A stretch of 45,271 nucleotides of DNA from positions 1-45,271 of IMG/VR virus record IMGVR_UViG_3300037847_006994. One strand, given 5' to 3'. Each line of letters opens with the position of its first letter. Within the stretch, counting starts at the first letter, position 1. The notes beneath the pieces were generated by a model that did no database searches, was not told the DNA's origin, and saw only the letters and a list, made by a program, of their open reading frames with translations. Shown piece by piece: positions 7,641 through 31,318 of this stretch. This DNA is from a virus. Made by a program: the position numbers and the translations under genes.

Positions 7641-8195
7641 CTATAAACTTAAATCGTAACCCCCAAACCTTTCCATATAAGAAGTAATTTTAACTCCATT
7701 TCCATCTTCAGCTACTTTTCCAGTTCTGAACCATTTTCTAACACTACCAGCACCACATAAATGTGAAGCTGCTAATAATCCTGACTCAGTTACTAAAATA
7801 CCATGAACTATTTCACCCTCATATTTGTCAATATACTTACCAAGACGTTTTTTATTATAAAGTAAATGTTTATGCATTGCATACTCTTGTAAAAAAGTAT
7901 CATTTAAAAACTCTTGTCTAGTTGTTTTGATTTTTAATGTTTTTAAAGTAGAATTACCAAATTGATATCTACCCATATAACCATATCTATTTACTATGTG
8001 GTATTTATTACCTGATTCTTGATGTCCTATTGCATCTAAAAATAATTCATAATCACTCTTTACTATAATAGGTGGGGTTTCCTCTTCAATGCTAATATTA
8101 ACTTCTAAAAATTCAGGTTGGGGTGATGGAAACATTATTGCAAGTAATAATATACTGAATAAAGTAAATATGAAAAAATAATCTTTGAAATTCAT
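7641..8195 (-). CDS. membrane-anchored lytic transglycosylase (lysozyme-like)
   Basis: 184 residues. A single N-terminal hydrophobic helix (about 6-25) acts as signal anchor or releasable signal-anchor-release sequence. The catalytic core shows HQESGNKY with the candidate catalytic Glu60, then VNRYGYMGRYQFG (69-80), the pattern of SLT/lysozyme-like peptidoglycan lyases of Bacteroidetes. A second set of Gly/Ser motifs (ESGLLAASHLCG, about 137-148) completes the fold. It would cut murein in the periplasm, either as endolysin with pinholin-type control or for DNA entry. It overlaps nothing and lies 25 bases before the probable structural gene. Confidence 0.75.
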   Translation of the reverse strand: MNFKDYFFIFTLFSILLLAIMFPSPQPEFLEVNISIEEETPPIIVKSDYELFLDAIGHQESGNKYHIVNRYGYMGRYQFGNSTLKTLKIKTTRQEFLNDTFLQEYAMHKHLLYNKKRLGKYIDKYEGEIVHGILVTESGLLAASHLCGAGSVRKWFRTGKVAEDGNGVKITSYMERFGGYDLSL

Positions 8196-9498: not shown

Positions 9499-10044
9499 TT
9501 ATAGTTTGTATTGAATTCTATTATTGATAATATACATCCCTTTAGGTAAATCTCCAAATTTTAATTTTAATTCTCTACCTAATAAGTCATAAATTTTACC
9601 ATTATTAGTATTATTATTTAATATTAGTTCATCTATAGATAATGGATTACCTCCCATACTTCTAGCCCAAGCTTGACCATCCCAATATTGATCAAAACAA
9701 CACACTAGAGTGTCAATATTACCTATACTATCTGAAACTGTATATGTTACACAAGTTGTAAGTGTGTCATAAGGCATTCCTGTTAATGTATTATAATTGT
9801 AAATGGTATGCGTACATGCTTGACCAAAACAACTATCTTCTGCCAACATATTTCCATCACCATAAGTAGCTACATATAAAGGTGCTGACCAAGTAGATGG
9901 AGTATTACCTCCAACACCAAATGCTATTTCTAATTGAAATTGTGATCCTATTGTGTATGACATAGTTGAATCACATGATGATTGTGCTTGTGTTATTTGA
10001 GTTAGCCCAAAAGCAATAGCTAACGTTAGTAAAAACTTTTTCAT
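9499..10044 (-). CDS. secreted protein with T9SS C-terminal sorting domain
   Basis: 181 residues. Signal peptide 1-20 (MKKFLLTLAIAFGL..., cleavage after TQA). The middle is a Thr/Cys-rich beta domain (about 21-135) with disulphide-ready cysteines and a CCFDQYWDGQAW segment. The last 35 residues match the type A T9SS sorting domain: G-KIYDLLGREL, then LPKGMYIIN and a basic end. In Bacteroidetes this domain sends cargo through the outer membrane, where it is cleaved and often anchored to A-LPS. A phage gene with this tag implies delivery of a phage product to the host surface. It lies right downstream of the glycan island. Confidence 0.8.
   Translation of the reverse strand: MKKFLLTLAIAFGLTQITQAQSSCDSTMSYTIGSQFQLEIAFGVGGNTPSTWSAPLYVATYGDGNMLAEDSCFGQACTHTIYNYNTLTGMPYDTLTTCVTYTVSDSIGNIDTLVCCFDQYWDGQAWARSMGGNPLSIDELILNNNTNNGKIYDLLGRELKLKFGDLPKGMYIINNRIQYKL
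9527..9558 (-). promoter_or_regulatory. possible internal promoter
   Basis: Minus-strand TTTGGAGATT, ten bases, GATG, TATATTAT at the family's spacing, inside the 3' end of the T9SS-cargo gene and 30 bases from the start of the 57-aa gene. The TT before the -7 element is missing and the bases also encode a conserved protein motif, so chance is possible. Confidence 0.35.
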
Positions 10045-10091: not shown

Positions 10092-10970
10092 CTAAATTAC
10101 TTCAATTTCAATATCCACGCCTCCTAATCCCCAATTGCTTATATTTTTTGTTAAGTAATGGAAATTTTCAACCCAAGTAAAAGCATCATTATAAGCTTGA
10201 GTATCTCCTTTATAAGCACCTTTATTTTCACTATCATGCACACGTGTTCCATCTGCTTTAGTAAAATAAGCTCCATGTTCCATATGATATAAAGCTGGTT
10301 CGTACAATACTTCTAATTTATAACCATTTAATACTGCTTTTTTCTGTACATTTGTATCTACAAAACAAGCATATATCATTTCTTCTTCAAATCCCTTAAT
10401 TTTATTCCAAACATCTTTATGTGCTATTTGAAAATCACCACAACAATTAATTAAACTGTAATTATCATTTGGTGTTACTTTAGCTGGAAAATGTCTTGCT
10501 GGGATATTAGATAGTGATTCCCTTAATTCTTTTTCATTTCTGCTATTATATATTACATCTTTAGGTGCTTCTCTTCTAGACACAGTATAAAAAGTATTCT
10601 TATCTAAACCTTTAATTAATTTTTTTAATTCTTTTTTTGTTGGAGGTATTATATCTATGTTTGTAGATACAATCCAATCAGCATCACTTCTTCTAATAGC
10701 AATATTTCTACTTATTGCTTCATTACATTTTTGGGCATTAGCATCAAATATAATTTGATTAACAACATTAGAAGGTATACAATAATGTTTTATTTTTCCT
10801 TTTTTAGGTAATTTATCTTCAATTTCCCAAATAAAGGATCCATTAGGTGAATTCCAATCAACATAATTTACTTCATCAAATGACTTAACCATCGATTTAA
10901 AGTGAATTAAACCTCTTTCAAAATCTTTATAACCATCATTTCTATTTACTACTACTGATGCTATCTTCAT
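10092..10970 (-). CDS. glycosyltransferase, GT-A fold (GT2-like)
   Basis: 292 residues, cytosolic. The N-terminus (KIASVVVNRNDGY) is the first Rossmann-like strand of GT-A enzymes that take several residues of the donor nucleotide. The metal/nucleotide motif is a variant DxD (TNIDIIPP, about 103-110), preceded by a conserved NEAISRNIA helix like the N-x-x-R-N of GT2/GT27 enzymes. Acceptor-side motifs include CCGDFQIAHKDVW (176-188). It overlaps the preceding SDR gene by 29 bases. Sugar donor and acceptor cannot be told. Likely product: one step of a surface or virion glycan. Confidence 0.7.
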   Translation of the reverse strand: MKIASVVVNRNDGYKDFERGLIHFKSMVKSFDEVNYVDWNSPNGSFIWEIEDKLPKKGKIKHYCIPSNVVNQIIFDANAQKCNEAISRNIAIRRSDADWIVSTNIDIIPPTKKELKKLIKGLDKNTFYTVSRREAPKDVIYNSRNEKELRESLSNIPARHFPAKVTPNDNYSLINCCGDFQIAHKDVWNKIKGFEEEMIYACFVDTNVQKKAVLNGYKLEVLYEPALYHMEHGAYFTKADGTRVHDSENKGAYKGDTQAYNDAFTWVENFHYLTKNISNWGLGGVDIEIEVI

Positions 10971-11826
10971 AATACTTTATTGTTTTTTCTAAACCTTTTT
11001 TTAATGATGTAAATTTATATCCTTTTAAATGTGTATTAACTAATTTTTTACTTTTAGATCCTACAAATGCTTCTGTATCCCACTTAACTAAGTTATAATC
11101 ATAACCTACTATATCACAAATAGTTTTAGCATATGTTTTTAATGTATAAGATTTACCTGAAGATAGATTAAATATTTTTGGTGTTTTAGGAGACATTGAT
11201 TGTAATATTATATCTACAGCATCGTCAATAAAAATTAATTCTCTAGTTTGTGTTCCATCTCCCCAAAGTACTACTTCATCACCCCCATTTTTAGCGTTAA
11301 CTATTTTTCTAATTAAATCAAATATAAAGTGTTTATCTTCTAAATCATAATTAGGACCATAAAAAACAGATGGTATTAAATACCTAAAATCCATTTTAAA
11401 TTCTTGTTTTAATGCAGATATTCCTGTTAGTAAATTACGTTTAATCATACCATAAACTTCATATCCAGTTTCAGGTACATCTAACATATAATTGGTTTCT
11501 GTTTTTTTAACTTTATTGCTATAACCACAAGATGAACCAAATGTAATCATAGTTGCTCTTTGTTGATATTGAGCCCAATAAGCTAACATATCAGAATTAA
11601 TACTTGAGTTTACTATCCATTGTTCACCTGGGTGTTTTTGACAATAACCTCCAGCTGCTGTTTTAACTGCTAAATGAAAAATATAATCATATGAATTTTT
11701 TTCTAATGACCACATACTACTAAAATTAGTTGAATTAATTTCAGTAACTTCACAATTTTCATCTTTTAATCTATTAACTAAATGTCTACCTACAAATCCA
11801 GTAGCACCTGTAACTAATACTTTCAT
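10942..11826 (-). CDS. NAD(P)-dependent SDR, GDP-L-fucose synthase-like
   Basis: 294 residues from the ATG at 11826, chosen because it starts the Rossmann strand (MKVLVTGATGFVG) and lies one base after the upstream stop; a start 12 codons earlier would fall inside that gene. Features of extended SDRs: G7-x2-G10-x2-G13, FGSSCGY (about 96-102) like the GSSC of GDP-fucose synthases, and catalytic Y125-x3-K129. A FIDDAVD motif near 205 is also typical. GDP-fucose synthase (epimerase-reductase) is the best match, and the GT10 fucosyltransferase-like gene in the same island supports it, but the exact sugar is not proven. Confidence 0.7.
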   Translation of the reverse strand: MKVLVTGATGFVGRHLVNRLKDENCEVTEINSTNFSSMWSLEKNSYDYIFHLAVKTAAGGYCQKHPGEQWIVNSSINSDMLAYWAQYQQRATMITFGSSCGYSNKVKKTETNYMLDVPETGYEVYGMIKRNLLTGISALKQEFKMDFRYLIPSVFYGPNYDLEDKHFIFDLIRKIVNAKNGGDEVVLWGDGTQTRELIFIDDAVDIILQSMSPKTPKIFNLSSGKSYTLKTYAKTICDIVGYDYNLVKWDTEAFVGSKSKKLVNTHLKGYKFTSLKKGLEKTIKYYEDSISSSK

Positions 11827-11827
11827 A

Positions 11828-12769
11828 TTATAAATTTGTATATTTTTTATTATTATCTGCAATAACCATTGAATATGCTTTTTCTAATTCTATAATACCT
11901 GATTCAATTGAATGGATAGGTCTCCAACCATAACTTTCTAATTTATCATTTGATACAATATAATCTCTATTATCAAAATCAGAACTAAAATCATTTTCTA
12001 TAATTACTAATTTAGGAAAATATTCTTTAATAGCTTCTGCTAATTCTTTTTTATTTAAATTAGCTTTAGATAATCCTACATTAAATACTTCACCATTCAT
12101 TTTATCATAATTTTCTATACAAAATAAAAATGTTCTAGCTATATCCCTTACATGAATATAATTACGTTTAAATTGAGATTGAAATAATACTAATACACCT
12201 TCGGTCATTGCTTTATAAACAAAATCATTAACTAGTAAGTCAGTACGCATTCTAGGTGATGCACCAAATACAGTTGCTAATCTTAAACATATACCATTTT
12301 TATTATTTAAAATATATTGTTCAGCTTCACATTTAGTTTTAGCATATAATGATAATGGGTTTTGAGGACTATCTTCTGTAATAATATCTTTTGAACTACC
12401 ATACTGACTATTAGTATTAGGCATTACTAATTTTTGATTAGGTTCTAAAATATCTACAATGTTTTTAATTTGCTCTAAATTAACTTTAACTGTTAAATCT
12501 GGGTTAGCTTTACAAGCTGGTGCTCCTACTATTGCTGCTAATGGGATTATAATATCATGAGCTGCTACTAATGCTTGTAGTGTTGTTTTATCTGTAACAT
12601 CTCCCTTAATAAATTCAAAATCACCAACATCACAATAATGTAGTAGTGATGTTTGTTTATACATTAAATTGTCTAATACAGTTACTGAGTAACCATTGCC
12701 TAGTAAATATTCAACTAATATAGAACCTAAATAACCAGCTCCACCTGTAATTAATACACTTTGTTTCAT
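11828..12769 (-). CDS. NAD-dependent nucleotide-sugar epimerase/dehydratase (SDR)
   Basis: 313 residues with the full extended-SDR kit: GGAGYLG (9-15), an acidic D33 after the second strand for NAD, D57 (GDVTD), LAAIVGAP, and catalytic Y142-x3-K146 (LYAKTK). The HVRDIARTF motif near 205-215 is characteristic of UDP-/GDP-sugar epimerases. Substrate unknown. It overlaps the RmlC-like gene upstream by four bases (ATGA) and is one base from the fucose-synthase-like gene, so all are made from one transcript. Confidence 0.8.
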   Translation of the reverse strand: MKQSVLITGGAGYLGSILVEYLLGNGYSVTVLDNLMYKQTSLLHYCDVGDFEFIKGDVTDKTTLQALVAAHDIIIPLAAIVGAPACKANPDLTVKVNLEQIKNIVDILEPNQKLVMPNTNSQYGSSKDIITEDSPQNPLSLYAKTKCEAEQYILNNKNGICLRLATVFGASPRMRTDLLVNDFVYKAMTEGVLVLFQSQFKRNYIHVRDIARTFLFCIENYDKMNGEVFNVGLSKANLNKKELAEAIKEYFPKLVIIENDFSSDFDNRDYIVSNDKLESYGWRPIHSIESGIIELEKAYSMVIADNNKKYTNL

Positions 12770-13302
12770 ATAGTATCTGCGTTTTTATCACGTGAAGATA
12801 ATATAGGATTATCAATAGGCCAAGGTATATTTAATTTTGGATCATTCCATTTTACTGTAAATTGTTCTGATGCTCCTCCATATAATGTAGATTGTTTATA
12901 ACTAAATATTCCAAAATCACTCATTACTAAATGACCGTTTGCAAAACCAGGTGGTATTAATATTTGTTTTCTATTTTTATCATTAATACTAAACATATCA
13001 TATTCTAAATAAGTATCACTTGATTCTCTCATATCAACGACTACTTGTAATAGTGAACCATAAACACATGAAACTAATTTCCATGTTTTATTATCACCAT
13101 GCAGTCCTCTTAACGTATGTTTTACTGATGTACTTATGTCATCTTGTTTAAATTCAATTTTTTTACCATTATTAACTATGTGGTCAAATATTTTATAATT
13201 TTCTACATTCCAAGTTTCAACATATTCACCTCTATAATCATAGAAAATATCTGGTTGTATAATTACTACTTCTTCTAATTTTTTACTAACTTTATATTTC
13301 AT
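12766..13302 (-). CDS. rfbC: dTDP-4-dehydrorhamnose 3,5-epimerase-like (RmlC)
   Basis: 178 residues, the normal length for the cupin-fold RmlC family. Seen: DYRGEYVETW (22-31), RGLHG with the catalytic-base His68, K75, D90, IPPGFANGHLV (116-126), an aromatic acid position near Y135 and KWNDP (151-155). The family epimerises C3 and C5 of 4-keto-6-deoxy sugars in the cytoplasm. No RmlA or RmlB is in the window, so the substrate must come from the host or from genes outside, or the enzyme acts on another 4-keto sugar such as the WxcM/FdtC relatives. It overlaps the kinase gene by 11 bases. Confidence 0.85.
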   Translation of the reverse strand: MKYKVSKKLEEVVIIQPDIFYDYRGEYVETWNVENYKIFDHIVNNGKKIEFKQDDISTSVKHTLRGLHGDNKTWKLVSCVYGSLLQVVVDMRESSDTYLEYDMFSINDKNRKQILIPPGFANGHLVMSDFGIFSYKQSTLYGGASEQFTVKWNDPKLNIPWPIDNPILSSRDKNADTI

Positions 13303-14044
13303 TTATATCTATTTTTGCAGTACCTTTTTTCTGTACTACTTGGGTTGCACATTTATTTGCAAATTTAATTGCTTTTATTATACTTTTATTTTTTAAATAA
13401 TCAAATACTAAACCAGCTAAAAATGTATCACCTGCTCCACTAGTATCTCTTACATCAACTTCTTTAACAGGATAAATTTTACCTTTATACTCAGCTCCTC
13501 TAGGTCCTCTTGTAATAATCATTTTTTTAGACCAACTTTTATCAATATTATCTTTATTATACTTAAATTCTACATCATTAATTTTAATAAATTTAATTTT
13601 ATCAGCATAACTACCTAATGATTTTTTAGTATCTAAAAACGTTAAGGGGTGTTGTTCTGATATGTATTTGATTGTAGCTTCATCAATAAAACCTTTACAA
13701 TAATCACTAATTACAATAGCATCAAATTCATCAAATTTAATATCTTCTAATGATTTTTGAGCTATAGGAAATACATCATCTTCACCTTCATCAACTCTAA
13801 TAAACATATGATTTGTTCTACTATCAACATATCTTGTTTTTCTGATGTGATTAGCATTTGAAACCAACCAACCATCACAACCTAATGCTTTTAAATTATC
13901 TACTACATTACCAGCCATACCTAAAGCACTTACAAATGATTCAGGTTTTAGAATTGGAACAGGTGCATCTGGACAGAACCTACCTGTTGTACAATAAATG
14001 TATTCATCTAAACAACTATCTCCTATTACTAATATTTTACTCAT
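13292..14044 (-). CDS. PfkB-family sugar kinase, HldE/RfaE1-like
   Basis: 250 residues. The N-terminal IGDSCLDEYIYCTTGRFCPDAPVP and the GMAGNVVDNL helix are hallmarks of the D-glycero-D-manno-heptose-7-phosphate kinase domain of HldE. The C-terminal signature D200-TSGAGD206 holds the anion hole and catalytic Asp, and SDYCKG (113-118) is also typical. It is shorter than the usual ~315-residue kinase domain, with loops trimmed in the middle, and has no adenylyltransferase domain. It probably phosphorylates a heptose or similar sugar to feed the island's nucleotide-sugar pool. Confidence 0.75.
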   Translation of the reverse strand: MSKILVIGDSCLDEYIYCTTGRFCPDAPVPILKPESFVSALGMAGNVVDNLKALGCDGWLVSNANHIRKTRYVDSRTNHMFIRVDEGEDDVFPIAQKSLEDIKFDEFDAIVISDYCKGFIDEATIKYISEQHPLTFLDTKKSLGSYADKIKFIKINDVEFKYNKDNIDKSWSKKMIITRGPRGAEYKGKIYPVKEVDVRDTSGAGDTFLAGLVFDYLKNKSIIKAIKFANKCATQVVQKKGTAKIDINEI

Positions 14045-14936
14045 TTATTATTTTATTTAATCGTTTACTTATTGCTTGTATTACATCATCAGCAAATTCT
14101 TCTTTTGTTTTTACATTACTATTTTTAGTAATATAATTTTTATACTGATTTAAACTATGTTTATAATTTTCTGTTACTACTAAATTTTTAATAATATATT
14201 GATTAACGTCTTTACCCTTATTAAATTTATAGTAGTCTAGTAAATTCATTATAAATGTATCATCAGGTCCGTAATGACCCAAACTATAATCAAATTCAAT
14301 ATAATCCTTAAACAAATCAGATGTTAATAAATTACACCAACCAGCAGCAAATTTAAATCTTTGCTCATTTTTAATAACTGATAGCTCTTTCCCGTTATGT
14401 TTAAATAATTTATAACCATCAAACCCAAAATAATTATCGTGTGATGCCGGTATGTTCATGTAGTCTTCATTAACTAAAACATCCCATGTTTCATCCCATA
14501 ATCTATGTATTTGAGGTGTTATTATACAATGTTTATCCTCAACCGACTTATGAGCTACAATTAAAGATGCTATAGCATTATCTGGGAAGATCATATCACT
14601 ATCAAACCAAATAAAGGCATCTACTTTATCTTTATATTGTTCTAAAAACATAGTTTTATAACTAAAGGCACCTAATATTTTTTCTTCAAAATTTATGTGT
14701 TCATCTAATGTACAATATTCTTTTACAATATTATTTAATTCATTAAATCTATCAACAAAATAACCAGGATTAAATACACTATTTTCCCAATTATAAAAAT
14801 AATTTGATAAATTTAAAAATGGTGAAAATATAATTTCATCATCAATGTAATTAAAATTTCTTCTTAATTGATGTATAAATGTTTGATAATTATCTATTTC
14901 ATAAGGTGATATGTGGATACTTATATGGTATTTCAT
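14037..14936 (-). CDS. glycosyltransferase, GT-A fold
   Basis: 299 residues, cytosolic. A DxD in FIWFDSDMIFPDNAI (about 107-121) is flanked by a hydrophobic strand, as in GT2/GT-A enzymes that bind NDP-sugar through a metal ion. A GWCNLLTS segment (about 200) and GPDDTFIMN (about 223-231) supply acceptor and base residues often seen in this fold (an aspartate-rich ED/DD motif). It overlaps the sugar kinase by 8 bases and the GT10-like gene by 4. Donor and acceptor unknown. Confidence 0.65.
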   Translation of the reverse strand: MKYHISIHISPYEIDNYQTFIHQLRRNFNYIDDEIIFSPFLNLSNYFYNWENSVFNPGYFVDRFNELNNIVKEYCTLDEHINFEEKILGAFSYKTMFLEQYKDKVDAFIWFDSDMIFPDNAIASLIVAHKSVEDKHCIITPQIHRLWDETWDVLVNEDYMNIPASHDNYFGFDGYKLFKHNGKELSVIKNEQRFKFAAGWCNLLTSDLFKDYIEFDYSLGHYGPDDTFIMNLLDYYKFNKGKDVNQYIIKNLVVTENYKHSLNQYKNYITKNSNVKTKEEFADDVIQAISKRLNKIINE

Positions 14937-15799
14937 AAATTATTCATTTCAATTAATTCATCAATAAATTCTTCTATTCGTTTAAAGAAATTACTATTTT
15001 CTAATGCTCTTTGATAATTAACATCAATAAAACCTTTCATATCATAATAATCCTGAGGTGTTAATTTATTAATAATATCTACTAATTCATTTTCATCTTC
15101 AAAATGTATAATACCTCTATCATCATAAAAATCACCTATATAAGGAGCACCCCAATAAATTGGAACGGTTTTAGTACAAAAACAATCTATAATTTTATCT
15201 GTAAAATAATTATTATGTTTTGAATTTTCTACTGCTACATGAAACATAGCATTTCTATTCCATAATTCTTTTTTACCTTCACCTTCAATTGGATTACCAT
15301 TTGGTAGATCATTACCATCAGGCCTATTATTTTTTTCATGATTAAAATCACTTAAATATGGATACCATTTATGTGGTATTTTTATTTCTGATTCTTTATC
15401 AAATATTCTATGTCTTAAATGATGACCTTCAATTTTATTTAAAACACCTCTTAAGAAATTAACTTCAAATACTCTTTCTTTATTTTCAAATTCTTTACAA
15501 TATTCTAAATCAATATTTCTTTCACCATGAGGGAATATTATTGAATTAGGTAAATTAATATCTGAATTCCAACTTAACACAGCTGAGTATAAATGACCAT
15601 ACTGTTTAGCATAATTATGTAAACCAAAAAATTCATTAGGTTCATTAATTAATAATATATTAATTGGATTAATTGCTAATTCTTCAGGTGTACCTGGTTT
15701 ATCATTAAAGATAGTTATTGGTTTATCTTTAAACCTTTCAATACTACCTAATCTTTTTTCATACCTTTCTTGAGGTATAAAATTACTAAATATTACCAT
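14933..15799 (-). CDS. GT10 fucosyltransferase-like glycosyltransferase
   Basis: 288 residues. The C-terminal half carries the GT10 (alpha-1,3/4-fucosyltransferase) donor-binding signature: HVAVENSKHNNYFTDK (187-202), then TVPIYWGAP (211-219), IGDFYDDRGII and a closing SFID-like GFIDV. Members transfer fucose, or a related 6-deoxy sugar, from a GDP donor, which fits the fucose-synthase-like SDR three genes downstream. The N-terminal acceptor half is short but complete. Cytosolic, no membrane anchor. Confidence 0.75.
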   Translation of the reverse strand: MVIFSNFIPQERYEKRLGSIERFKDKPITIFNDKPGTPEELAINPINILLINEPNEFFGLHNYAKQYGHLYSAVLSWNSDINLPNSIIFPHGERNIDLEYCKEFENKERVFEVNFLRGVLNKIEGHHLRHRIFDKESEIKIPHKWYPYLSDFNHEKNNRPDGNDLPNGNPIEGEGKKELWNRNAMFHVAVENSKHNNYFTDKIIDCFCTKTVPIYWGAPYIGDFYDDRGIIHFEDENELVDIINKLTPQDYYDMKGFIDVNYQRALENSNFFKRIEEFIDELIEMNNL

Positions 15800-16176
15800 G
15801 ATACCTCCCAGTCTTTAAAGTCAGCAGCTAAACAGTCTATTTTATAGTCTTTTCTACCACCTACTTTTTCTTGTATTTTATTTTTTGCAGTATTTCTAAT
15901 ACCATTTAAACCATGAGTTAATTCTAAATTATTACCATCTTTGATACCTTTTCTGTAATTAGATTCATTATGCCAAATATGTAAATTCATTTGAGCTAAT
16001 ACAATTACAGATCTAATTAAATCAGCATCAATACCTTCTAAATTAATATCATGCATTATGTCTTTAATTTCCTTAGCATATTCTTCTTTATGTTCAGGAA
16101 TAAAAACTTCTTTTAATTGTGCTATTGATAATCTATCAATTAATTCACTTAATGTTGGTAAATATTTTCTACTCAT
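15793..16176 (-). CDS. small helical protein of the glycan island
   Basis: 127 residues, helical. It starts with LPTLSELIDRLSIAQLKEVFI, a pattern seen in small domains that accompany glycosyltransferases in bacteria and phages (S-x-x-ELID+L-S/T-I-x-x-K). No catalytic motif. Overlaps of 7-8 bases with both neighbours make co-translation likely, so it may be an accessory or scaffold for the flanking transferases. Family number not asserted. Confidence 0.6.
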   Translation of the reverse strand: MSRKYLPTLSELIDRLSIAQLKEVFIPEHKEEYAKEIKDIMHDINLEGIDADLIRSVIVLAQMNLHIWHNESNYRKGIKDGNNLELTHGLNGIRNTAKNKIQEKVGGRKDYKIDCLAADFKDWEVSW

Positions 16177-16795
16177 ATGTACTGTAGTAATTATTTTGTT
16201 TTACTTGTTTTTCTATATCTTTAGGGTGATATAAAGCAAATTGTTCATCTTCATGTAAATTAGACCATGTTTTATATCCCTCTAGTACTTCATGTACTTT
16301 ATTTACCCATCTAATTTTAGTATTATTTTTATAAATTCTCCACTGAAAATCAGGCCAATTAACCCAACCTTTATCATCTACTCTCCAACCCCATTGTCTA
16401 ACATACTCTTCAGTTAAACCATGTACAGTATTAACTCTAGGTACTCTAATTACTTCATTTTCAGGATTACTTAGTATTATTTCTGGTAGTAATTCTATTA
16501 ATGTTTCATGTGGCATTTCATCTGCATCTATTTGAAAGATCCAATCACCACTACACATGTCAGTTAATTTATTTTTCCAATTAGCAAAATGCCCATCAAA
16601 TTCACCTGGCATCCAAGCTATTTCACAATTAACTGATTTTGCTCTTAAAAATTGTTCTATACCTTCATGACCGTTGTTAATATCATATAATATAACAATA
16701 TTGTCTTCAGGACGTTTTTTCTCTAAAAGAAATAAAACTAATCTTTGGATTTCTACGAATTCATCACAAACTGTGATTGCATAACTAATATTCAT
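16169..16795 (-). CDS. glycosyltransferase family 2
   Basis: 208 residues with a compact GT2 core. ISYAITVCDE at the N-terminus is the donor-binding strand, GDWIFQIDADEMP (residues 82-94) carries the DxD (D-A-D), and a Trp-rich acceptor region (QWGWRVDDKGWVNWPDFQW, about 134-152) is followed by RWVNKVHEVLEGY, the K-V-H-E motif typical of small GT2 enzymes related to LPS core glucosyltransferases (WaaE type). Cytosolic. It overlaps both neighbours. Confidence 0.8.
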   Translation of the reverse strand: MNISYAITVCDEFVEIQRLVLFLLEKKRPEDNIVILYDINNGHEGIEQFLRAKSVNCEIAWMPGEFDGHFANWKNKLTDMCSGDWIFQIDADEMPHETLIELLPEIILSNPENEVIRVPRVNTVHGLTEEYVRQWGWRVDDKGWVNWPDFQWRIYKNNTKIRWVNKVHEVLEGYKTWSNLHEDEQFALYHPKDIEKQVKQNNYYSTYE

Positions 16796-17678
16796 CTTTG
16801 TCTAAATTGTTGATGTAATATAATAACCTATCCTTGGGTTTCCAACCTAAAATATTCGTAGCATCTTTATCTTCACATAATGTAGCTCTATAATTACCTG
16901 GTTGGTCTTCTAAGTAAGATATTTTACAATTAAATTTATCTTGAAACATTTTTGCCAACTCAATAATAGAATAATTCACACCTGTTCCTAATTCCCAAGC
17001 ATCTTCATGTTCTATACCCTTTATACCAATTTTATATAAACCATCAACAATATCATCAACGTGAGTAAAATCTCTTCTTTGTTTCCCATCACCAACAATT
17101 TCAATACCTGCTCCTCTATTGATTCTAGATCTCCAAATACCAATTACATTACCATTTACTTCATCTAATGCTTCACCAGGACCATATACATTATAAAATC
17201 TACAAATTTCAACTTCTAAATTAAAAGATTCTTTATATAATTTACATACACCTTCACCTAAATATTTATACATAGCATAAGGTGAAGTAGCTGGATTGTG
17301 ATGTCTAGATGAAGAACCAGCGTATACTACTTTAGCACCAATTTTTAAAGCATACTCACATACTCTTTTAGTACCTAGAACATTAGAAGTGAATGTTTCT
17401 GAGGGATCATCAAATGAAGGTTGAACTCTTGATTGAGCAGCTAAGTGGTAAATTATATCAAAATCTTCAGCTAAAAACCAATCAAAACTCCCATGTTCAC
17501 TTATATCACCTTTATGATATATAGCTGTAAATCCTTCTACAGTTAAATGATTACTAGTATTACCTGTGGTATAATTGTCTAAGGAATGGACTTCATGTCC
17601 TTCATTTAACAATCTTTTTATTAAATTAGATCCTATGAATCCTGCTCCTCCAGTAACTAATATTTTCATTTTATTCAT
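16785..17678 (-). CDS. NAD-dependent nucleotide-sugar epimerase (SDR, GalE/UGD-like)
   Basis: 297 residues. GGAGFIG (10-16), D34, GDIS (57-60), LAAQSRVQPS, a GSSS strand and catalytic Y134-x3-K138, then FYNVYGP (about 160) and DFTHVDDIVDGL give a textbook extended SDR of the UDP-glucose 4-epimerase / UDP-glucuronate decarboxylase group. The start may be the ATG at 17678 or Met4 at 17669, which follows the upstream stop by one base. Its substrate is open. Together with the other SDRs it would provide several NDP-sugars for the six transferases. Confidence 0.8.
   Translation of the reverse strand: MNKMKILVTGGAGFIGSNLIKRLLNEGHEVHSLDNYTTGNTSNHLTVEGFTAIYHKGDISEHGSFDWFLAEDFDIIYHLAAQSRVQPSFDDPSETFTSNVLGTKRVCEYALKIGAKVVYAGSSSRHHNPATSPYAMYKYLGEGVCKLYKESFNLEVEICRFYNVYGPGEALDEVNGNVIGIWRSRINRGAGIEIVGDGKQRRDFTHVDDIVDGLYKIGIKGIEHEDAWELGTGVNYSIIELAKMFQDKFNCKISYLEDQPGNYRATLCEDKDATNILGWKPKDRLLYYINNLDKDEY
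16815..16846 (-). promoter_or_regulatory. possible internal promoter in the glycan island
   Basis: Minus-strand GTTGGAAACC, ten bases, TTAT, TATATTAC with the family's exact spacing, inside the 3' end of the SDR gene and 20 bases before the start of the GT2 gene at 16795. The TTAT box equals that of the site at 2825-2856. Could be chance. Confidence 0.35.
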
Positions 17679-18168
17679 CTTTAGAACCGAATACTCCTAT
17701 ATAATCTAATGCTTCAACAAAATCATTATGAGCAAATCTTTTTTCAGTTGTCATATCCATTCTCCATTCATAATACTCACCTTTTTTACCTGGGATTGGG
17801 AATTTTTCTTTTTCTTCTTCAGTTATTTTTACTGCTTTAACTCCAGCCCATTCATAATTATCTTGTGATACTGCTTCATCTTTAACACCAAATTCTTTAG
17901 CTGCTGTAGCAAATACCATACCATTTTGAGGCAGATTTACCGTTTGAGGCATCCATACTAACCCATCTTCATCTTCACCTAATAATGCTTTATATAAATT
18001 AGGTAATATTTCCATTTGTTCTTCAAAAAACTTTTCACCTTGTTTCATTATAGTTGAAGTTTGGAAACCACAACCATAACAAGAGTAAAGAGTTATTTTA
18101 CCTACTTTTTGAGTATAACAAGCATCACCCCCACATCTTTTACACTTAATTAAATTATCTGCTTTCAT
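17671..18168 (-). CDS. zinc-ribbon hypothetical protein, 165 aa
   Basis: An N-terminal zinc ribbon (C9-x2-C12 ... C30-x2-C33) is followed by a helical region and a segment rich in aromatic and acidic residues (about 60-160). No enzyme motif. Placed in the middle of the glycan island with a TAATG overlap to the GT4 gene upstream, it may be a phage core gene interrupted by, or travelling with, the island. Function unknown. Confidence 0.65.
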   Translation of the reverse strand: MKADNLIKCKRCGGDACYTQKVGKITLYSCYGCGFQTSTIMKQGEKFFEEQMEILPNLYKALLGEDEDGLVWMPQTVNLPQNGMVFATAAKEFGVKDEAVSQDNYEWAGVKAVKITEEEKEKFPIPGKKGEYYEWRMDMTTEKRFAHNDFVEALDYIGVFGSKDE

Positions 18169-19466
18169 TATTTTACTATTTTAAGTTTATCTTTTTTAGG
18201 CATTTTTATTTTAGAAATATTAGGTAATTTTAATTCCATTTTTTTAGGTAATTCTGGGATAGTTAAGTCTAATATCTCTTTAATTTTTGATTTCATTTTT
18301 TTATAACTAAAGTTTTTTCTAGAATGAGCTCCTTGTTTTTTACTTTTTAATTTCCACTCATCATACTTTAAAAATACATCTTGATAACCATTGTTAACCC
18401 ATTGGTCACCTACTTTAAACCATTGAGCTTCACCTAATATCATATCTTTAACTTGGGCAGATGAATGTACTTTTTCTAGTTCACCACCTAATAAAGCACA
18501 ATAATCTTTACTTAAGAAATCTATATGACCTGACCACCCTGTAGTAATAATAGGTTTATTTAAAGTACTGAATTCAAGTAATGGCCTACCAAATCCTTCA
18601 CCTTTAGTTAAACTTATCATTGCTTTAACTTTAGGATTATTATAAATTTCATTCATTTCAATATCTGTAAAGTCTCCATGTAACAAATAAACATTAGGTA
18701 AATCATCTCCTTTAACTGATTCTCTTATTAAATCAATTCTTCTTAACATTTCTACTCTATCAGCATTACTACCTCCAACAGCACAAGTTTTTAATATAAG
18801 TGCTGGTTTTTTAGGTTTACCTTTAAATATTTCATAAAAAGCTTTTACTGTAAGGCCTATATTTTTTCTATCATGTCCTAAATCACCTTGCATCCAATGT
18901 CCTACAGTTAAATATGCAAAATCTTCAGGTATAGATTGTATTTGTTTTTTTAAGTCTTTATTTGTAAATTTTTTAATTTCTTTATAAACATCTAAATTAA
19001 CTCCTTCAAATAATACTTTAATAGGTTTATCTAATTTTAAAATATGACTTCCATCTTTTGCTTGATATTGTGATGCTTCAAATGTTACCTTTGAATGATT
19101 TGATGATGTTAAAATTAAATCCATACGATTACAACCTTCAATCCAACTTGAATGTACATGAGTTGTTTCCATTCCTGCTGTTAAACCAATATTATATTTA
19201 CCTACAGGTTGAAATTCATTTGGAACTGTTATCATACACCATATATCTGGTTTTGATTGTAAATTTGGTATAATATGCTTTTGTAAAAACCCCCATTCTT
19301 TTTTATTATTTTCTATAAAATTTTCTGGTGTGTTTCCCCATCTTTGAGGTATAATAGATACTTCATATTCATCTAGTTCAATTAATGCCTTTACAAAGTC
19401 TCTAGAACGAGCACCATAACCACTAAAAGTATCAATTGGACAACTTACAACAAATGTATTTTTCAT
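18168..19466 (-). CDS. GT4-like glycosyltransferase (GT-B fold)
   Basis: 432 residues. The N-terminal acceptor domain opens with DTFSGYGARSRDF (12-24), the Gly-rich loop of GT-B enzymes. The donor domain starts near YLTVGHWMQGD (185-195), with RKN at 200-202, and holds the E-x7-E type signature KGEGFGRPLLEF (288-299), followed by PIITTGWSGH. The last 45 residues are Lys-rich. GT4 enzymes are retaining transferases for polysaccharide or glycolipid chains. Donor unknown. The Lys-rich tail may hold it at the membrane. Confidence 0.8.
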   Translation of the reverse strand: MKNTFVVSCPIDTFSGYGARSRDFVKALIELDEYEVSIIPQRWGNTPENFIENNKKEWGFLQKHIIPNLQSKPDIWCMITVPNEFQPVGKYNIGLTAGMETTHVHSSWIEGCNRMDLILTSSNHSKVTFEASQYQAKDGSHILKLDKPIKVLFEGVNLDVYKEIKKFTNKDLKKQIQSIPEDFAYLTVGHWMQGDLGHDRKNIGLTVKAFYEIFKGKPKKPALILKTCAVGGSNADRVEMLRRIDLIRESVKGDDLPNVYLLHGDFTDIEMNEIYNNPKVKAMISLTKGEGFGRPLLEFSTLNKPIITTGWSGHIDFLSKDYCALLGGELEKVHSSAQVKDMILGEAQWFKVGDQWVNNGYQDVFLKYDEWKLKSKKQGAHSRKNFSYKKMKSKIKEILDLTIPELPKKMELKLPNISKIKMPKKDKLKIVK

Positions 19467-19467
19467 G

Positions 19468-20910
19468 TTAGTATATTAATTTATGATTTAAAACTTTTCT
19501 TTCTATATCTGTATCTTTAGTAAATGTAAATGATTTTCTTGGTTTAAATTTTTTAAATAATTCATCCATTCCTTCAATTACTCTTTCACCCTGAACTTGA
19601 GCAGTAAATCCAGCTTCTTTACTTGTAACCCAATCATATCCAGCTTTACCTATTTCTTTTCTTTCTTTTTTACTCATATCATACAATGCTCTAATTTGTT
19701 TAGCTGCATCTTCAGGTGTACATCTATCATCCCAAATGTAAGGAGTTTTAGGTGAACCTACTAATGATAGATTAGTTGGAAATACAGGTAATGCCCATTT
19801 ACCACATTTTTTATAAGTACCTCTATGATTTGAAGGAACATTTTCATCAAAATCAATCCAATTACCATTTTCGTCTTCAAAACGCATTTGATCTTGCATA
19901 CCACCAGTAACATTAGCAATAATAGGAGTACCTGTTAATAATGCTTCTGTTAGTGATAATCCCCAACCTTCAGCTGAAGAAAGTAATACAACACCATCTG
20001 CTATATTATAAAAATGATTTAATTGATCTCTTGTTAATTTTTGTGATGATAATATTATATTACCTGATCCTTTATTTGGGAATAAAAAATTAATTACTGC
20101 TGGTAAATCAGTACCTGCATCATTTACAAGATCTGTATGAAGAATAAAATTACATTTATTGCGCTCTTCTTCTGTTAAAGTTTCCATAAATAATTTCCAA
20201 GCAAATATTGTATCAGGAATACATTTCCTTCTAATATTTCTAGAATTAAAAAATAATGTAAAATCAATATCTACACCATTATTTATTTTATCTTTTGTTT
20301 CATTTAAAGCCTTATCATTATCCTTAAGAGGTTTAAATGTATTGCTATTTAACCCATGAGGTATATATTTTATAATTTTATCTTTACATCTTTCTTTACC
20401 TAAAACTAATTTATTTATATTAACTGTTTGTTTAGAAATCCCAAATAAAGCATCACATGAATCATAAAATTCTCTATTATACATTGGGGCTGGTAAGTCA
20501 TCCCAAATATTTAAGTATGCTATTGGAATTTGAGATCTAATTTCATTTTCAATTTGAAACAACCAATCAAAATATCTTGGATCTGTTATTAAAAATAAAG
20601 CATCTGGTTTTTCATGTTTGATTACTTCTCTTAATGTTTTTGGATCTCCATAACCATCAACTGGAAATAATATTACACTTGAATCTTCAATTCCTGCATC
20701 TTTATTAATTGCATCAGATAAATCCACAGGTCTACCTTTTTCAGGATGTCTAATAGCTCCTGCCATTTGTATCCAATTGTATCTATGAGCTGTGTGAGTT
20801 ATTACTTCTCTCCCCACATTGGCTACTCCAGAATGAACTCTAATATCATCTGTTAATAATAGAATTTTTTTTCTATTTTCTTTTTTTATATAACCTTCTT
20901 TCATCTTCAA
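19468..20910 (-). CDS. GT4-like glycosyltransferase (GT-B fold)
   Basis: 480 residues. The N-terminal loop DDIRVHSGVANVGRE (21-35) and IPHGLNSNTFKP (183-194) match GT4 enzymes; the donor signature SSAEGWGLSLTEA (311-323) carries the two catalytic-site glutamates, followed by PIIANVTGG. It is the first gene of the unbroken glycan transcript unit, followed one base later by the second GT4 gene. The pair may build alternating linkages of one glycan. Met3 is an alternative start. No membrane helix. Confidence 0.8.
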   Translation of the reverse strand: MKMKEGYIKKENRKKILLLTDDIRVHSGVANVGREVITHTAHRYNWIQMAGAIRHPEKGRPVDLSDAINKDAGIEDSSVILFPVDGYGDPKTLREVIKHEKPDALFLITDPRYFDWLFQIENEIRSQIPIAYLNIWDDLPAPMYNREFYDSCDALFGISKQTVNINKLVLGKERCKDKIIKYIPHGLNSNTFKPLKDNDKALNETKDKINNGVDIDFTLFFNSRNIRRKCIPDTIFAWKLFMETLTEEERNKCNFILHTDLVNDAGTDLPAVINFLFPNKGSGNIILSSQKLTRDQLNHFYNIADGVVLLSSAEGWGLSLTEALLTGTPIIANVTGGMQDQMRFEDENGNWIDFDENVPSNHRGTYKKCGKWALPVFPTNLSLVGSPKTPYIWDDRCTPEDAAKQIRALYDMSKKERKEIGKAGYDWVTSKEAGFTAQVQGERVIEGMDELFKKFKPRKSFTFTKDTDIERKVLNHKLIY

Positions 20911-25169: not shown

Positions 25170-26807
25170 TTACATCATACCCGCACCTGGATAAGGTGTT
25201 GATGGGTTATTAATTGTTACATTTTTAGGGTCTTGAGGTTCATTTACTACTATACATTCTGTAAGTAATACTGTACCTGCTACTGAAGCTGCATTTTCTA
25301 ATGCTACTCTAGTTACTTTAGTTGGATCAATAATACCAGCTTCTTTCATATCAACTACTTTATCAGTTTTGATATTATATCCAGCCCAGGTATCGTTTCC
25401 AGAATCAACTAATCTATACCTACCTAACATTTGAGCTCCAACTGAGTCATGTCCCGCGTTTATAAGTATTTGTTCAAATGGTTTACCACATGCTTTATAG
25501 ACTATTTCTGCACCGATATTATCTTTTTTAATAGATTCTCTAGCATATAATAATGCTGCACCACCTCCAGGAACAATCCCTTCTTCTTGTGCTGCTTTTG
25601 TTGCATGTAAAGCATCATCTACTCTATCTTTTTTCTCATTCATTTCAGTTTCATTATGACCACCTACATGAATAATTGAAACACCACCACAAACTTTAGC
25701 TAGTCTATTTTGTAATTGTTCGCGTTCAAATTCACTTGAAGCACCTTCAACTTGAGCAGCTAATTCTTCAATTCTTTGATTAATTGCATCTTCATTACCT
25801 TTACCATCAATAATGGTTGTTTTATCTTTACCAATTGTAACTGTACGAGCTTCACCAAACCAATCCCAAGAAAATTTATCTAATTTCATTCCCTTAGATT
25901 TGTCAAATACTTGACCACCAGTCATTATAGCAATATCTTCTAGAATTAATTTTCTTCTATCACCAAAATCAGGAGCTTTAACAGCACATACACTTAATGT
26001 ACCTCTTTGTTTATTAACAATCAAAGTAGCTAATGCTTCATGGTCTATATCTTCAGCTATAATTAATAATGATTTAGCTTGTTTAGCTACACCTTCTAAA
26101 ATAGGTAATAATTCTTTTACATTAGTAAATTTACGATCAGCAATTAAAATACTAACATCATTTAGGGTACTTGTCATTGTATTGTTATCAGTAACAAAAT
26201 ATGGAGATTTATAACCTCTATCAAATTGTAGTCCTTCAACAGTTTCTAAATATGTTTCACCTGATTTGCTTTCTTCAATATGAACTACTCCTTCAACTCC
26301 TACTTTTTCAATAGCTGTTGATATTAATTTTCCAACTTCTACATCATTATTAGATGAAATAGTTGCTACTTGTTCTAATTGATCTTCTGATGAAATATCT
26401 TCTGATATTTTATTTTTTAATACATCAACTACCTCTTTTACAGCTGTGTCAATTCCTCTTTTAATTTCAACTGCATTAACACCATTATTTAAATGTTGTA
26501 ATCCTTGCTGTATCATTTCTCTAGCTAATAATGTTGATGTTGTAGTTCCATCTCCAGCTTTATCTGCTGTTTTAATTGAAGCATTCTGGATAAGATTAAC
26601 TCCTAATTGTTCAAAAGGTTCTTTTAATCTAATATGTTTTGCTACTGTTACACCATCTTTAGTTGATTGTACTTGATTATGATCTTGTTGAATAGCAACA
26701 TTCCTTCCATTAGGACCTAATGTTGATACAACTGCGTCAGCTAAAGTATCAATACCTTTAACCATTTTTTCCCTTCCTTCAGGGCCAAACTTAATTAATT
26801 TACTCAT
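25170..26807 (-). CDS. groEL: GroEL chaperonin
   Basis: 545 residues, full length (548 in E. coli). ATP-site residues are present: TLGPNGRNV (29-37), TKDGVTVA with Asp near 51, AGDGTTT with Asp near 86, GGGAAL and the catalytic VDDALHAT Asp near 397. The usual GGM-repeat C-terminus is replaced by the short PYPGAGMM. It forms the folding chamber with GroES. Its start overlaps the groES stop by 8 bases. Phage GroEL proteins are rare; a phage that brings its own probably folds an abundant or difficult virion protein. Host origin by transfer is likely but ancient, given the phage-like base composition. Confidence 0.95.
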   Translation of the reverse strand: MSKLIKFGPEGREKMVKGIDTLADAVVSTLGPNGRNVAIQQDHNQVQSTKDGVTVAKHIRLKEPFEQLGVNLIQNASIKTADKAGDGTTTSTLLAREMIQQGLQHLNNGVNAVEIKRGIDTAVKEVVDVLKNKISEDISSEDQLEQVATISSNNDVEVGKLISTAIEKVGVEGVVHIEESKSGETYLETVEGLQFDRGYKSPYFVTDNNTMTSTLNDVSILIADRKFTNVKELLPILEGVAKQAKSLLIIAEDIDHEALATLIVNKQRGTLSVCAVKAPDFGDRRKLILEDIAIMTGGQVFDKSKGMKLDKFSWDWFGEARTVTIGKDKTTIIDGKGNEDAINQRIEELAAQVEGASSEFEREQLQNRLAKVCGGVSIIHVGGHNETEMNEKKDRVDDALHATKAAQEEGIVPGGGAALLYARESIKKDNIGAEIVYKACGKPFEQILINAGHDSVGAQMLGRYRLVDSGNDTWAGYNIKTDKVVDMKEAGIIDPTKVTRVALENAASVAGTVLLTECIVVNEPQDPKNVTINNPSTPYPGAGMM

Positions 26808-27174
26808 TGTCTTCTATTTTTATATCATTAATTGCTTTTTCTTCTTCAGGAGTTACTTCTGTTTCAGCTAAAATATCTTCAACAGATGATTTAACTTTTG
26901 CTAAAATTTGATTTTCAGGACCTACATAAAATTCCTCTCCATTATGTTCTATTTTTGTAAATCCTTGTGTAGGTAATACTACTTCATCTCCAACTTTAAT
27001 TGTTGTTTCTACAAAACCTCCCATATGTGTAAATGAACCAGGACCGACAGATACTACTACACCATGTTCGTTTCTATCTTTACCAATATCTGGTACTACA
27101 ATGGATCCATACATTTCTTCGTTTTGTTCAATCGGTTTAACGATAACCGCATTAAATAGTGCTTCTAAATTCAT
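26800..27174 (-). CDS. groES: GroES co-chaperonin
   Basis: 124 residues. The GroES beta-barrel is clear: NAVIVKPIE, a mobile loop around EEMYGSIVVPD (19-29) ending in the hydrophobic IVV contact, HGVVVSVGPG, and VGDEVVLPTQG. Host GroES is about 97 residues; this one has an extra acidic C-terminal tail of some 30 residues (EVTPEEEKAINDIKIEDNE region) that is not part of the fold. Overlapping start and stop with groEL give the normal ES-EL order. The altered mobile loop may tune it to the phage GroEL or to the host one. Confidence 0.9.
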   Translation of the reverse strand: MNLEALFNAVIVKPIEQNEEMYGSIVVPDIGKDRNEHGVVVSVGPGSFTHMGGFVETTIKVGDEVVLPTQGFTKIEHNGEEFYVGPENQILAKVKSSVEDILAETEVTPEEEKAINDIKIEDNE

Positions 27175-28794: not shown

Positions 28795-30392
28795 TTTTTA
28801 GTATAAACTTTATTATTAATTACTAGAATATCTACTATTTCGTTGTCTAAATGTACGAAAGCTTCTTTGGGATGACAAACTATAGGTTCACCATGTACAT
28901 TAAAACTTGTATTTAGTAAAACTGGTATTTGAGTTAGTAACCAAAATTGACTAATTAATTCATAAAATTTAGAATTACTTTTAGGTGTTACTATTTGTAT
29001 TCTAGCTGTTTTATCTACAGGATGAACTACTGCTGGTATTTTATCATGCCATTCTGGTTTAGTATCATATAACATAGTCATAAATTCAGCTGTGTATTTT
29101 GATTTTTTAACATCAAATATATTATCAACAAAAGTATCCATTACAACAGGTGCAAATGGCATACGATCATTTCTTTGTAGTCTATCATTTACTTTCTTAT
29201 AAGTTCCAGGCACACTAGGATCTGCTATTATACTTCTATTACATAATGCTCTAGGTCCATGTTCGTATCTACCCTGAAACCATCCTACTATTTTACCTTC
29301 TTTTAGATCATATGCTAATTGTTGTTTATCATAAGGTCTAACATTAAATTTACTTTCATCTACTTCAAATTCATTATCTTCATAAGAAGTACCTAAAAAT
29401 ACATCATTTAGTCTAAATGGTTTAAAATCTGGGTTTTTAAGTTTATGAACTGATAGAGCTGATCCTAATGGTATTCCCTCATCTCCCATAGGAGGGGCAA
29501 TAAACACTTCATCAACCCAATCTAATTCATTAATTCTTTTATTTAATTTTACATTAGCAAATATACCTCCTGCTAATGCTACTTTTTTAATATGGGGATA
29601 TTTTTTATGTAAATTATTAAAAATTTGTAATACTTTTTCTTCAAATACTAACTGACCATTATAAGCTATTATTTCTTTTAAATGTGATGTATATTTACTT
29701 CCAAATTTTTCAAACCAAATACTATAAAAATCTTTATAAATACCTCCTAAGACTATATTACCATTATCTTTGTCTGTGTTAATATCATCTATCGTAATAC
29801 ATTTATCAAAACATTCATAAGCAGCATCAAAATAATGTCCATGAGATGCAGTACCTACTACTTTACCTTCATCTTTAAGTCTTTTAAAACCTAAAAATTC
29901 AGTTAGCATAGCGTAATAATGTCCTAATGATTTATGACTAATATCAATGTTACCTATATTTTCTAAATTACCGTTACTACCAATAAAATATCTAGCACTA
30001 TATTTTTCACCCATAGCATCTATTGATACTACTAAAGTATCATCTTCAAAACCACTACAATAATAAGCTAAACTACAATGTGCTCTATGGTGATTTGTTT
30101 TAATAAATTTTTCTTTTGGAAATGGACCTAAACCAATTCTATTCCAAATTTCAGCTGTAACTTTAGCTGAGTAATGAGACGTTATATAATCTAATTTATT
30201 CCAATCAAAGTCTTTATCATAACTAACATTTTGTCCTGACTCCCAAGGATATCTAAAATAATCTTTCCAAAAATCTCTATAGGTTTTTATTCTATTAAAT
30301 CTTTCTTCTTCAAATGCAAATATAGGTTTACCATCTTTAAGATAAGCTAAACCACAACTATGCATTCCTCCTGATATTCCTAATATTCTCAT
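28791..30392 (-). CDS. NodU/CmcH-family carbamoyltransferase
   Basis: 533 residues, full two-domain length. N-terminal MRILGISGGMHSCGLAY and EEERFNRIK (29-37), metal-binding HHRAH (101-105) and SIDAMGE belong to the Kae1-like domain. The YrdC-like half shows RYEHGPRALCNRSIIADP (in pieces RYEHGPRAL and NRSIIADP) and LLNTSFNVHGEPIV. The family uses carbamoyl phosphate and ATP to put a carbamoyl group on a hydroxyl of sugars or nucleosides. Its place between clamp and polymerase suggests a DNA-base or nucleotide target, but a glycan target is also possible. It overlaps both neighbours by four bases. Confidence 0.85.
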   Translation of the reverse strand: MRILGISGGMHSCGLAYLKDGKPIFAFEEERFNRIKTYRDFWKDYFRYPWESGQNVSYDKDFDWNKLDYITSHYSAKVTAEIWNRIGLGPFPKEKFIKTNHHRAHCSLAYYCSGFEDDTLVVSIDAMGEKYSARYFIGSNGNLENIGNIDISHKSLGHYYAMLTEFLGFKRLKDEGKVVGTASHGHYFDAAYECFDKCITIDDINTDKDNGNIVLGGIYKDFYSIWFEKFGSKYTSHLKEIIAYNGQLVFEEKVLQIFNNLHKKYPHIKKVALAGGIFANVKLNKRINELDWVDEVFIAPPMGDEGIPLGSALSVHKLKNPDFKPFRLNDVFLGTSYEDNEFEVDESKFNVRPYDKQQLAYDLKEGKIVGWFQGRYEHGPRALCNRSIIADPSVPGTYKKVNDRLQRNDRMPFAPVVMDTFVDNIFDVKKSKYTAEFMTMLYDTKPEWHDKIPAVVHPVDKTARIQIVTPKSNSKFYELISQFWLLTQIPVLLNTSFNVHGEPIVCHPKEAFVHLDNEIVDILVINNKVYTKK

Positions 30393-31318
30393 ATGTTAAA
30401 AAACATTTGTTGGTATGGGTTTAGATTTAAAGTCCAACCTAAATCATTATAAAACCCTTCTAATTTATTTAATAAGATAGATTCAAAAATCTTTTTTCTA
30501 TCTGCATATTGCTCAATAAATGTACGCATTTTTTCTGGTAAATCCCACTCTAAAAAAGCAATAGCATCTACTTGATATGGATTTTGTTTTAAATAAACCC
30601 ATTTAATTTTATCTCCTTGTGATATAGAAGAATGTTTTTTGTGTAATCCCCAAAATCTTAATAAATCATTGTATATAATGCAAGCTTTTACTGCTGCTGG
30701 TGCTCCCTTACCTATTACTGAAAACATTTCTCCGGCTCTGGCTTTACGTTCAGTATATTTATTTAACTTTTTTACTGCTTGAGGGTTACCTAACTGTGTT
30801 AGAGGAATAGAACCATCTAATATTTGTTTTTTAAATTCCTTTAATCTATCATCTATTTCCTTTTGTGTAGCTCCTTTTAAAACATCAACTAAAGCACTTT
30901 TAAAAAATTTACCTAGTACAGGAGGAAAATTAGCTTTTTTAAATTCTAAACCTTTTACATCTAATGATTCTTTTTTAATACCTTCTTGTTTAGTAATCCA
31001 TTGAGCATAACGTCTAGTAGCTCTAAAATAAGCTGAACGTATAACACATTCAGTTTTCATTTCTAATCTATGATTATCTGAGCGAAATACTTCTTTAGCT
31101 AATTTATCATATGATTTAGTAACTACTCCTTCATATTCCATAGCTATATTTTCTAAAGCATTATCTTTTTCTTCAGCACTCATTTCATCAAAGTTACTAT
31201 GCCTATATCTTAATATAGGTTCAGCATGCATATAAATTGAATCTGTATCACTGTAAGTACAGTAATTAGTATCTTCAGGATCACAAATCCACCAAGGAGT
31301 ATCTTCTAAATGTTTCAT
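30389..31318 (-). CDS. 43B: DNA polymerase, C-terminal part (gp43B)
   Basis: 309 residues. It begins just before motif C of the family-B palm (TYSDTDSIYM, DTDS at 24-27, with the second and third catalytic aspartates) and continues through the thumb to the end of gp43 (the C-terminal YQQMFFNI region is a likely clamp-binding tail). The start overlaps the stop of the N-terminal gene by four bases (ATGA). Both catalytic motifs are intact, so the two chains should assemble into one active enzyme. No slippery heptamer is evident, so reinitiation rather than frameshifting joins them. Confidence 0.9.
   Translation of the reverse strand: MKHLEDTPWWICDPEDTNYCTYSDTDSIYMHAEPILRYRHSNFDEMSAEEKDNALENIAMEYEGVVTKSYDKLAKEVFRSDNHRLEMKTECVIRSAYFRATRRYAQWITKQEGIKKESLDVKGLEFKKANFPPVLGKFFKSALVDVLKGATQKEIDDRLKEFKKQILDGSIPLTQLGNPQAVKKLNKYTERKARAGEMFSVIGKGAPAAVKACIIYNDLLRFWGLHKKHSSISQGDKIKWVYLKQNPYQVDAIAFLEWDLPEKMRTFIEQYADRKKIFESILLNKLEGFYNDLGWTLNLNPYQQMFFNI

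Follow-up and report, generated by a model that had tools for sequence, protein, structure and literature searches.

A compact C-terminal tag on a small cysteine-rich phage protein, probably read by the type IX secretion system of its Bacteroidota host

Phage-encoded cargo of the type IX secretion system (T9SS) with ordinary sorting domains is already in print, for Cryophage and for the crAss-like group. Cryophage proteins with T9SS type A sorting domains (an endoglucanase, a GH39 protein and a PA14 protein) have been proposed to use the host system (PMC7468147), and crAss-like gut phages encode BACON-repeat proteins that carry an ordinary T9SS sorting domain (PMC6949934). Type A domains have motifs A to E, of which B, D and E were modelled to contact PorV, and GFP was reportedly secreted with no more of HBP35 than its last 22 residues, which hold motifs D and E, making a short tag plausible (PMC10202324). 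In RgpB, replacement of F695-D-M-N-G-R-R701, the counterpart of motif B, blocked secretion, and an intact seven-strand CTD fold was important (PMC11285876); a tag of 34 residues is unlikely to form such a fold, which speaks against so short a T9SS tag. T9SS signals can also be specific to a species (PMC11285876).

The gene described here shares with the Cryophage cargo that it is phage-encoded with a putative T9SS signal, but the signal is a compact tag on a small cysteine-rich protein (PMC7468147). A T9SS sorting domain on a phage protein is likewise the point in common with the crAss-like proteins, where the protein has BACON repeats and the domain is ordinary (PMC6949934). The HBP35 signal was cut experimentally from a full domain (PMC10202324); the present tag is a natural compact one in which motif B is also kept. 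Relative to the type A models TIGR04183 and PF18962, the tag is alike in its C-terminal position, an IFDLxGR-type motif B, an LPxGxY motif D and, less clearly in P0001, a lysine-bearing last strand, and it is found on the same passengers in host orthologues; it differs in having about 34 rather than about 72 residues, in lacking motif A (YPNP) and motif C, and in leaving the model silent. Our search of the open-access literature, with subscription literature mostly outside its scope, found no report on a compact T9SS tag or on this family of phage proteins.

The window, that is, the whole stretch of DNA analysed, is a linear sequence of 45,271 bases that makes up an entire virus record and probably represents a fragment, with tailed-phage genes for a DNA polymerase, a sliding clamp, and tail-lysozyme-like and endolysin-like proteins. 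Its DNA polymerase B gene is apparently split into two overlapping ORFs of 558 and 309 aa (30389-32991), the longer of which matches positions 17-567 of 856 in phrog_262; the shorter was judged by eye. Also recognised by eye were GroEL- and GroES-like genes (25170-27174) and FolE-, QueE-, QueD- and QueC-like genes (33486-37791), the latter perhaps serving 7-deazaguanine DNA modification. The ORF at 9499-10044 is real, and its features are as follows.

9499 to 10044 (stop codon included), minus strand: gene of the putatively exported 181-aa protein P0001, an ATG ORF to which P0002 and P0003, on further viral contigs, are related
9982 to 10044, minus strand: signal-peptide-like N-terminus, residues 1-21 (MKKFLLTLAIAFGLTQITQAQ), by a hydropathy heuristic only
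9655 to 9981, minus strand: passenger, residues 22-130, with six cysteines (24, 72, 77, 98, 115, 116)
9502 to 9603, minus strand: compact tag at the C-terminus (residues 148-181), scoring 49.8 bits with the profile made from ten compact tags of host proteins
9568 to 9594, minus strand: motif B (L-beta3-beta4) equivalent IYDLLGREL, residues 151-159, from hhalign of compact tags to canonical CTDs
9529 to 9549, minus strand: motif D equivalent LPKGMYI, residues 166-172, from hhalign to the canonical LxxGxY stretch
9502 to 9528, minus strand: motif E (C-terminal strand) equivalent INNRIQYKL, residues 173-181, by position

P0001 begins with MKK, a hydrophobic stretch and TQAQ (hydropathy 2.26 over 12 residues, with 'AQ' at 20-21) and ends in ...GKIYDLLGRELKLKFGDLPKGMYIINNRIQYKL. 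The conserved glycine of motif B (L-beta3-beta4) is present in IYDLLGREL, a column match in hhalign for the tag family as a whole. Motif E is short, the weakest of the three, and has one lysine (K180); the naming of motifs D and E in the compact tag is our own assignment, made from alignment and position. The AF2 model of P0001 is poor (pLDDT 51) and shows little in the tag beyond a hairpin at 169-180.

An earlier note on this DNA had read the product as a signal peptide joined to a type A sorting domain over the last 70 residues. The ORF and, on hydropathy, the signal-peptide-like start stood up; the type A domain did not appear as a profile hit. P0001 had zero matches in Pfam, and at E <= 10 no T9SS model of NCBIfam matched it, whether type A (TIGR04183, named beforehand in the note as the check on its domain), type B (TIGR04131, which we take to be in the library searched) or type C (NF033708). 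TIGR04183, with a curated cut-off of 23 bits, was equally silent on all 16 scanned members of the compact-tag family. Against a purpose-built canonical-CTD profile of 25 domains, run with filters off, P0001 scored 6.2 bits and the best of 900 shuffles 10.0. Single family members gave 11.1 bits at most (shuffle maximum 10.0); such weak hits fall on the motif and were not counted as proof. Judged solely by the profile check that the note had set, its reading fails. The recognisable tag spans only residues 148-181 or so, about 34 residues. Motif A (YPNP) and the first strands are absent from P0001 and from the aligned compact tags, and the remaining length is too small for TIGR04183.

Membership of P0001 in a family of compact tags was evident from a profile built solely on ten tags of host orthologues of a protein, P0004, with no phage sequences included. 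This profile matched the P0001 frame at 49.8 bits (E 4e-15, 506 window frames); the next-best frame of the window, at 10.6 bits, was that of a canonical domain at the contig end, and 2,000 shuffled versions of P0001 scored 5.9 bits at best. The relation of these tags to canonical domains was addressed by profile-profile comparison with hhalign, taking the last 42 residues of the tags with X removed. Forty-five compact tags against 25 canonical domains scored 26.4. None of 500 profiles with permuted columns came up to this value, their maximum being 19.4, and reversing the profile gave 11.4; 14 phage tags alone scored 17.9, just above the null of 17.6. In the alignment KIYDLLGRE falls on IxDxxG of the canonical domain and PxGxxYI on the LxxGxY that comes next, and the compact tag appears to keep counterparts of motifs B, D and E, with A and C missing. 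A PDB profile search found a similar short tail near the C-terminus of the arabinanase 4kca_A (652-682 of 692, E 0.0028), a match suggesting that related short tails occur elsewhere. The solved structure of 4kca_A might show the shape of such a tail.

The main evidence for the nature of the tag is that on orthologous host proteins short tags stand where others have the T9SS domain, and they are therefore read as T9SS signals. Matches to the host protein P0004 (about 600 aa, from locus L106) were found in 37 of the 52 genomes covered from one bacterial family. Among the places matched, 31 frames from 30 loci yielded C-termini, 21 canonical and 10 compact, with none having both, and orthologues with either ending are 55-76% identical. 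The canonical ends score 46-65 bits with the canonical profile and 6.9 bits or less with the compact profile, whereas the compact ends score 22-38 bits with the compact and 4.0-7.7 bits with the canonical profile. An NCBIfam search of ten of these orthologues gave TIGR04183 hits on 5 of 5 long ends and on 0 of 5 short ones. A second replacement concerns an Omp28-like cargo adjoining the host homologues, canonical in L110 and short-tailed in L109; the two are 67-72% identical and switch just after PSGID, the short tail there being another short form. On P0004 orthologues it is the subtype to which the P0001 tag belongs that takes the canonical domain's place; for P0001's own passenger, all relatives are compact-tagged. 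A second short tail, approximately LxKIxDxLGRExxxxxxxLFYIYxDGTVEKKxxIE, was noted on neighbouring host proteins (L023 4478-5419 and 6690-7289, L109 160-2124, L112 8805-9452); this is the form that stands in for the canonical domain in the L109/L110 pair.

Two bacterial genome contigs matched, L023 from a 1.5 Mb MAG and L024 from a Crocinitomicaceae MAG, whose genomes hold 45 and 79 TIGR04183 matches, respectively. Among 52 genomes from the family of the former, a compact tag was matched in 25 and SprA, the T9SS translocon, was above cut-off in 44. In all 33 loci read from this family and that of G002 the protein ends in the tag, as judged by eye since the printed domain row was sometimes spurious, and the tag follows several unrelated passengers; one of these loci, L077, has the other short form. 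Two of the 33, L080 and L081, lie beside ordinary host genes and encode passengers 52% and 47% identical to that of P0001. The tag was rare elsewhere, with a match in only 2 of the 100 genomes covered from the G002 family (one of them weak) and, using a 30-tag profile, hits in 10 of 296 genomes of the phylum, nine of these weak (about 21-24 bits). SprA is present in all 10 of these tag-positive genomes, but it is so common overall (229 of 296) that this is not strong evidence. In one genome a compact-tagged gene (L088, G152:C23 43817-43927) lies just beside sprA (44713-51753), and in two genomes host copies are near a similar TPR-like protein, recognised by eye (L023 7290-8885, L112 9453-11063).

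P0001 is best read as carrying a compact T9SS signal, with delivery by the host T9SS, a reading to which we give a probability of roughly 75%. Targeting to this system, as the earlier note had proposed, is favoured by compact tags in place of type A domains on host orthologues, by SprA in 44 of 52 genomes of the host family and by a second, canonical domain in the window; the type A label itself was dropped. Counting against this reading are the silence of TIGR04183, the low scores of single members with the canonical profile, phage tags that by themselves barely clear the null, the intact fold important for RgpB, 17 of 19 related viral records without a canonical T9SS domain, the weak motif E of P0001 and the lack of a relative in 50,697 phage records. 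The module might instead be a small hairpin that serves folding or oligomerisation, or might direct the protein to another route, with a chance likeness to motifs B and D and export only to the periplasm or outer membrane. The silence of TIGR04183 on P0001 and 16 members, the weak direct similarity to canonical domains and an AF2 tag with little but the hairpin at 169-180 would all fit such a module, but it is an improbable explanation for a tag that replaces canonical T9SS domains on host proteins, is never found together with one, and is always C-terminal in a family with SprA.

In viruses, the passenger of P0001 recurs on two contigs, L001 and L002, with 84 of 106 (P0002) and 87 of 108 (P0003) aligned residues identical to P0001. 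A degenerate IYDLLGREL pattern found 19 viral loci, 18 of which encode ends of the same kind; the remaining one, L014, was rejected as a chance match to the pattern. An alignment search of viral contigs gave 20 loci, of which 19, on as many contigs, belong to the P0001 family and one (L043) has a different passenger and was excluded from the count. With the window, L001 and L002, the family is present on 22 viral contigs, including two with the 3' end only (L004 and L006) and one with a broken frame (L007, on the same contig as L028); the protein duplicates L015, L018, L019 and L021, as well as L036, were left out of the family alignment. The earlier note had suggested looking for the gene in other Bacteroidetes phages; relatives were found on 21 other viral contigs, and tblastn of P0001, a 34-aa tag and two relatives against 50,697 deposited phage records returned no credible relative, and the canonical T9SS domain of the window had one weak match there.

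Among the viral relatives the tag is the best conserved part, and the passengers diverge, most of them with a shared six-cysteine pattern. Gene neighbours vary between phage groups, a GroEL-like gene being nearby in 10 of 19 loci compared and an HNH gene being common to three (the window, L002 and L030). These observations make it very improbable that P0001 is a virion or lysis component whose tag is a functionless relic: a tail-lysozyme-like gene is nearby (7641-8195), but the neighbours differ between phage groups, the protein has a signal-peptide-like start, and it is the tag that is best conserved while passengers diverge.

The model of one relative, L012, has a confident beta-sandwich at residues 29-120 (pLDDT near 80-90) that is Ig/FnIII-like. 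VIA-align comparison with folds gave mostly Ig/FnIII-like matches with Z of 6-8.3 (best Z 8.3 over 86 residues at 2.5 A), and Foldseek with this model found nothing in the PDB at E <= 0.001 and, among viral proteins, a single match to a member of the family. On the model, the likeness is to a common fold and indicates no function. The uncharacterised UniProt entry A0A218ML00 (uncultured virus, 166 aa), with no function recorded, is 43% identical to L012. Taking the T9SS route as given, P0001 could be a host-derived metabolic or adhesive cargo, for nutrient capture, attachment or aggregation, without a part in phage competition. Host homologues adjoining other T9SS cargo and the modelled Ig/FnIII-like fold lend themselves to this possibility, which we hold open as a minority view; set against it are the recurrence of the family on 22 viral contigs in several gene neighbourhoods and the identity of about 80% that the window's passenger shows to those of two other phages, from which it seems useful to phages.

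The profile of host tags scored 18.5 bits on P0002 and 9.1 bits on P0003 compared with 49.8 on P0001. Since P0002 and P0003 score so far below it, P0001 differs from them in tag subtype although the passenger is shared, and exchange of tags among passengers is suggested. Third-position codon differences between the window and L001 amount to 21 of 30 in the tag and 28 of 106 in the passenger (p 2e-5), and those between the window and L002 to 12 of 29 and 27 of 108 (p 0.10). The tag is also more divergent between L001 and L002 (16 of 32, compared with 26 of 106 in the passenger), so the codon evidence for a tag swap is weak, and the difference in profile scores is the better evidence. The tag subtype is that of the host protein of about 600 aa, and the passenger has homologues of its own in hosts; phage and host have probably exchanged both. 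The link of this phage to its host consists solely of such shared sequences.

Two further features of the window bear on its relation to T9SS and to the cell surface.

44932 to 45213, minus strand: 3' part of another gene with a T9SS tag, truncated where the contig stops, with a canonical type A sorting domain at 44935-45135 (TIGR04183, 60.2 bits)
10092 to 20910, minus strand: sugar epimerase, kinase and glycosyltransferase cluster, with Pfam Epimerase, dTDP_sugar_isom, PfkB and Glyco_transf_10 in four of eight proteins scanned and further members assigned by eye

Full-length counterparts of the second gene, of 1151 aa in the L001 phage and 1127 aa in the L002 phage, have a 44-bit domain and, by eye, a signal-peptide-like start and cysteine-rich repeats, and each lies upstream of a gene resembling window 43877-44932 (by eye). 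The full-length versions (L144, 691-4146; L145, 721-4104) have repeats of the GCTDxxAxNYxxxAxxDDGSC type. Canonical T9SS cargo was therefore found in 3 of 3 phages with the P0001 passenger; among the other related viral records searched, 0 of 17 had a canonical T9SS domain. The sugar cluster lies directly upstream of the P0001 gene on the same strand, and Pfam gave a weak Glycos_transf_2 match for a fifth of its eight scanned proteins and nothing for three.

The ORF, its relatives, the homology of the tag and its replacement of canonical domains on host proteins are read from sequence comparison. On the preferred reading, delivery by the host T9SS, a phage of a T9SS-bearing Bacteroidota bacterium would make a small cysteine-rich protein that, to judge from its N-terminus, leaves the cytoplasm by the Sec route. 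The compact tag, with equivalents of motifs B, D and E only, would then be read by PorV and SprA of the host T9SS, and P0001 would end up on the outside of the infected cell or be shed from it. The earlier note had offered a change to the cell surface, action after lysis or a decoy as possible functions. The likeliest role, though only a doubtful guess, would be to mask or alter the surface of the infected cell, for example in superinfection exclusion and together with the adjoining sugar genes.

There is about an even chance that the tag represents a natural minimal T9SS signal of about 34 residues with motifs B, D and E only, too short for the seven-strand domain thought necessary and able to take the full domain's place in one Bacteroidota family with small genomes, whose phages would carry such tags on changing passengers and so present proteins of their own on the cells they infect. 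If so, the compact tag replacing the canonical domain on orthologues would show how little signal the T9SS machine needs, annotation with TIGR04183 would be missing a class of secreted proteins in both hosts and phages, and it would become directly testable whether phages remodel the surface of their infected hosts through T9SS.
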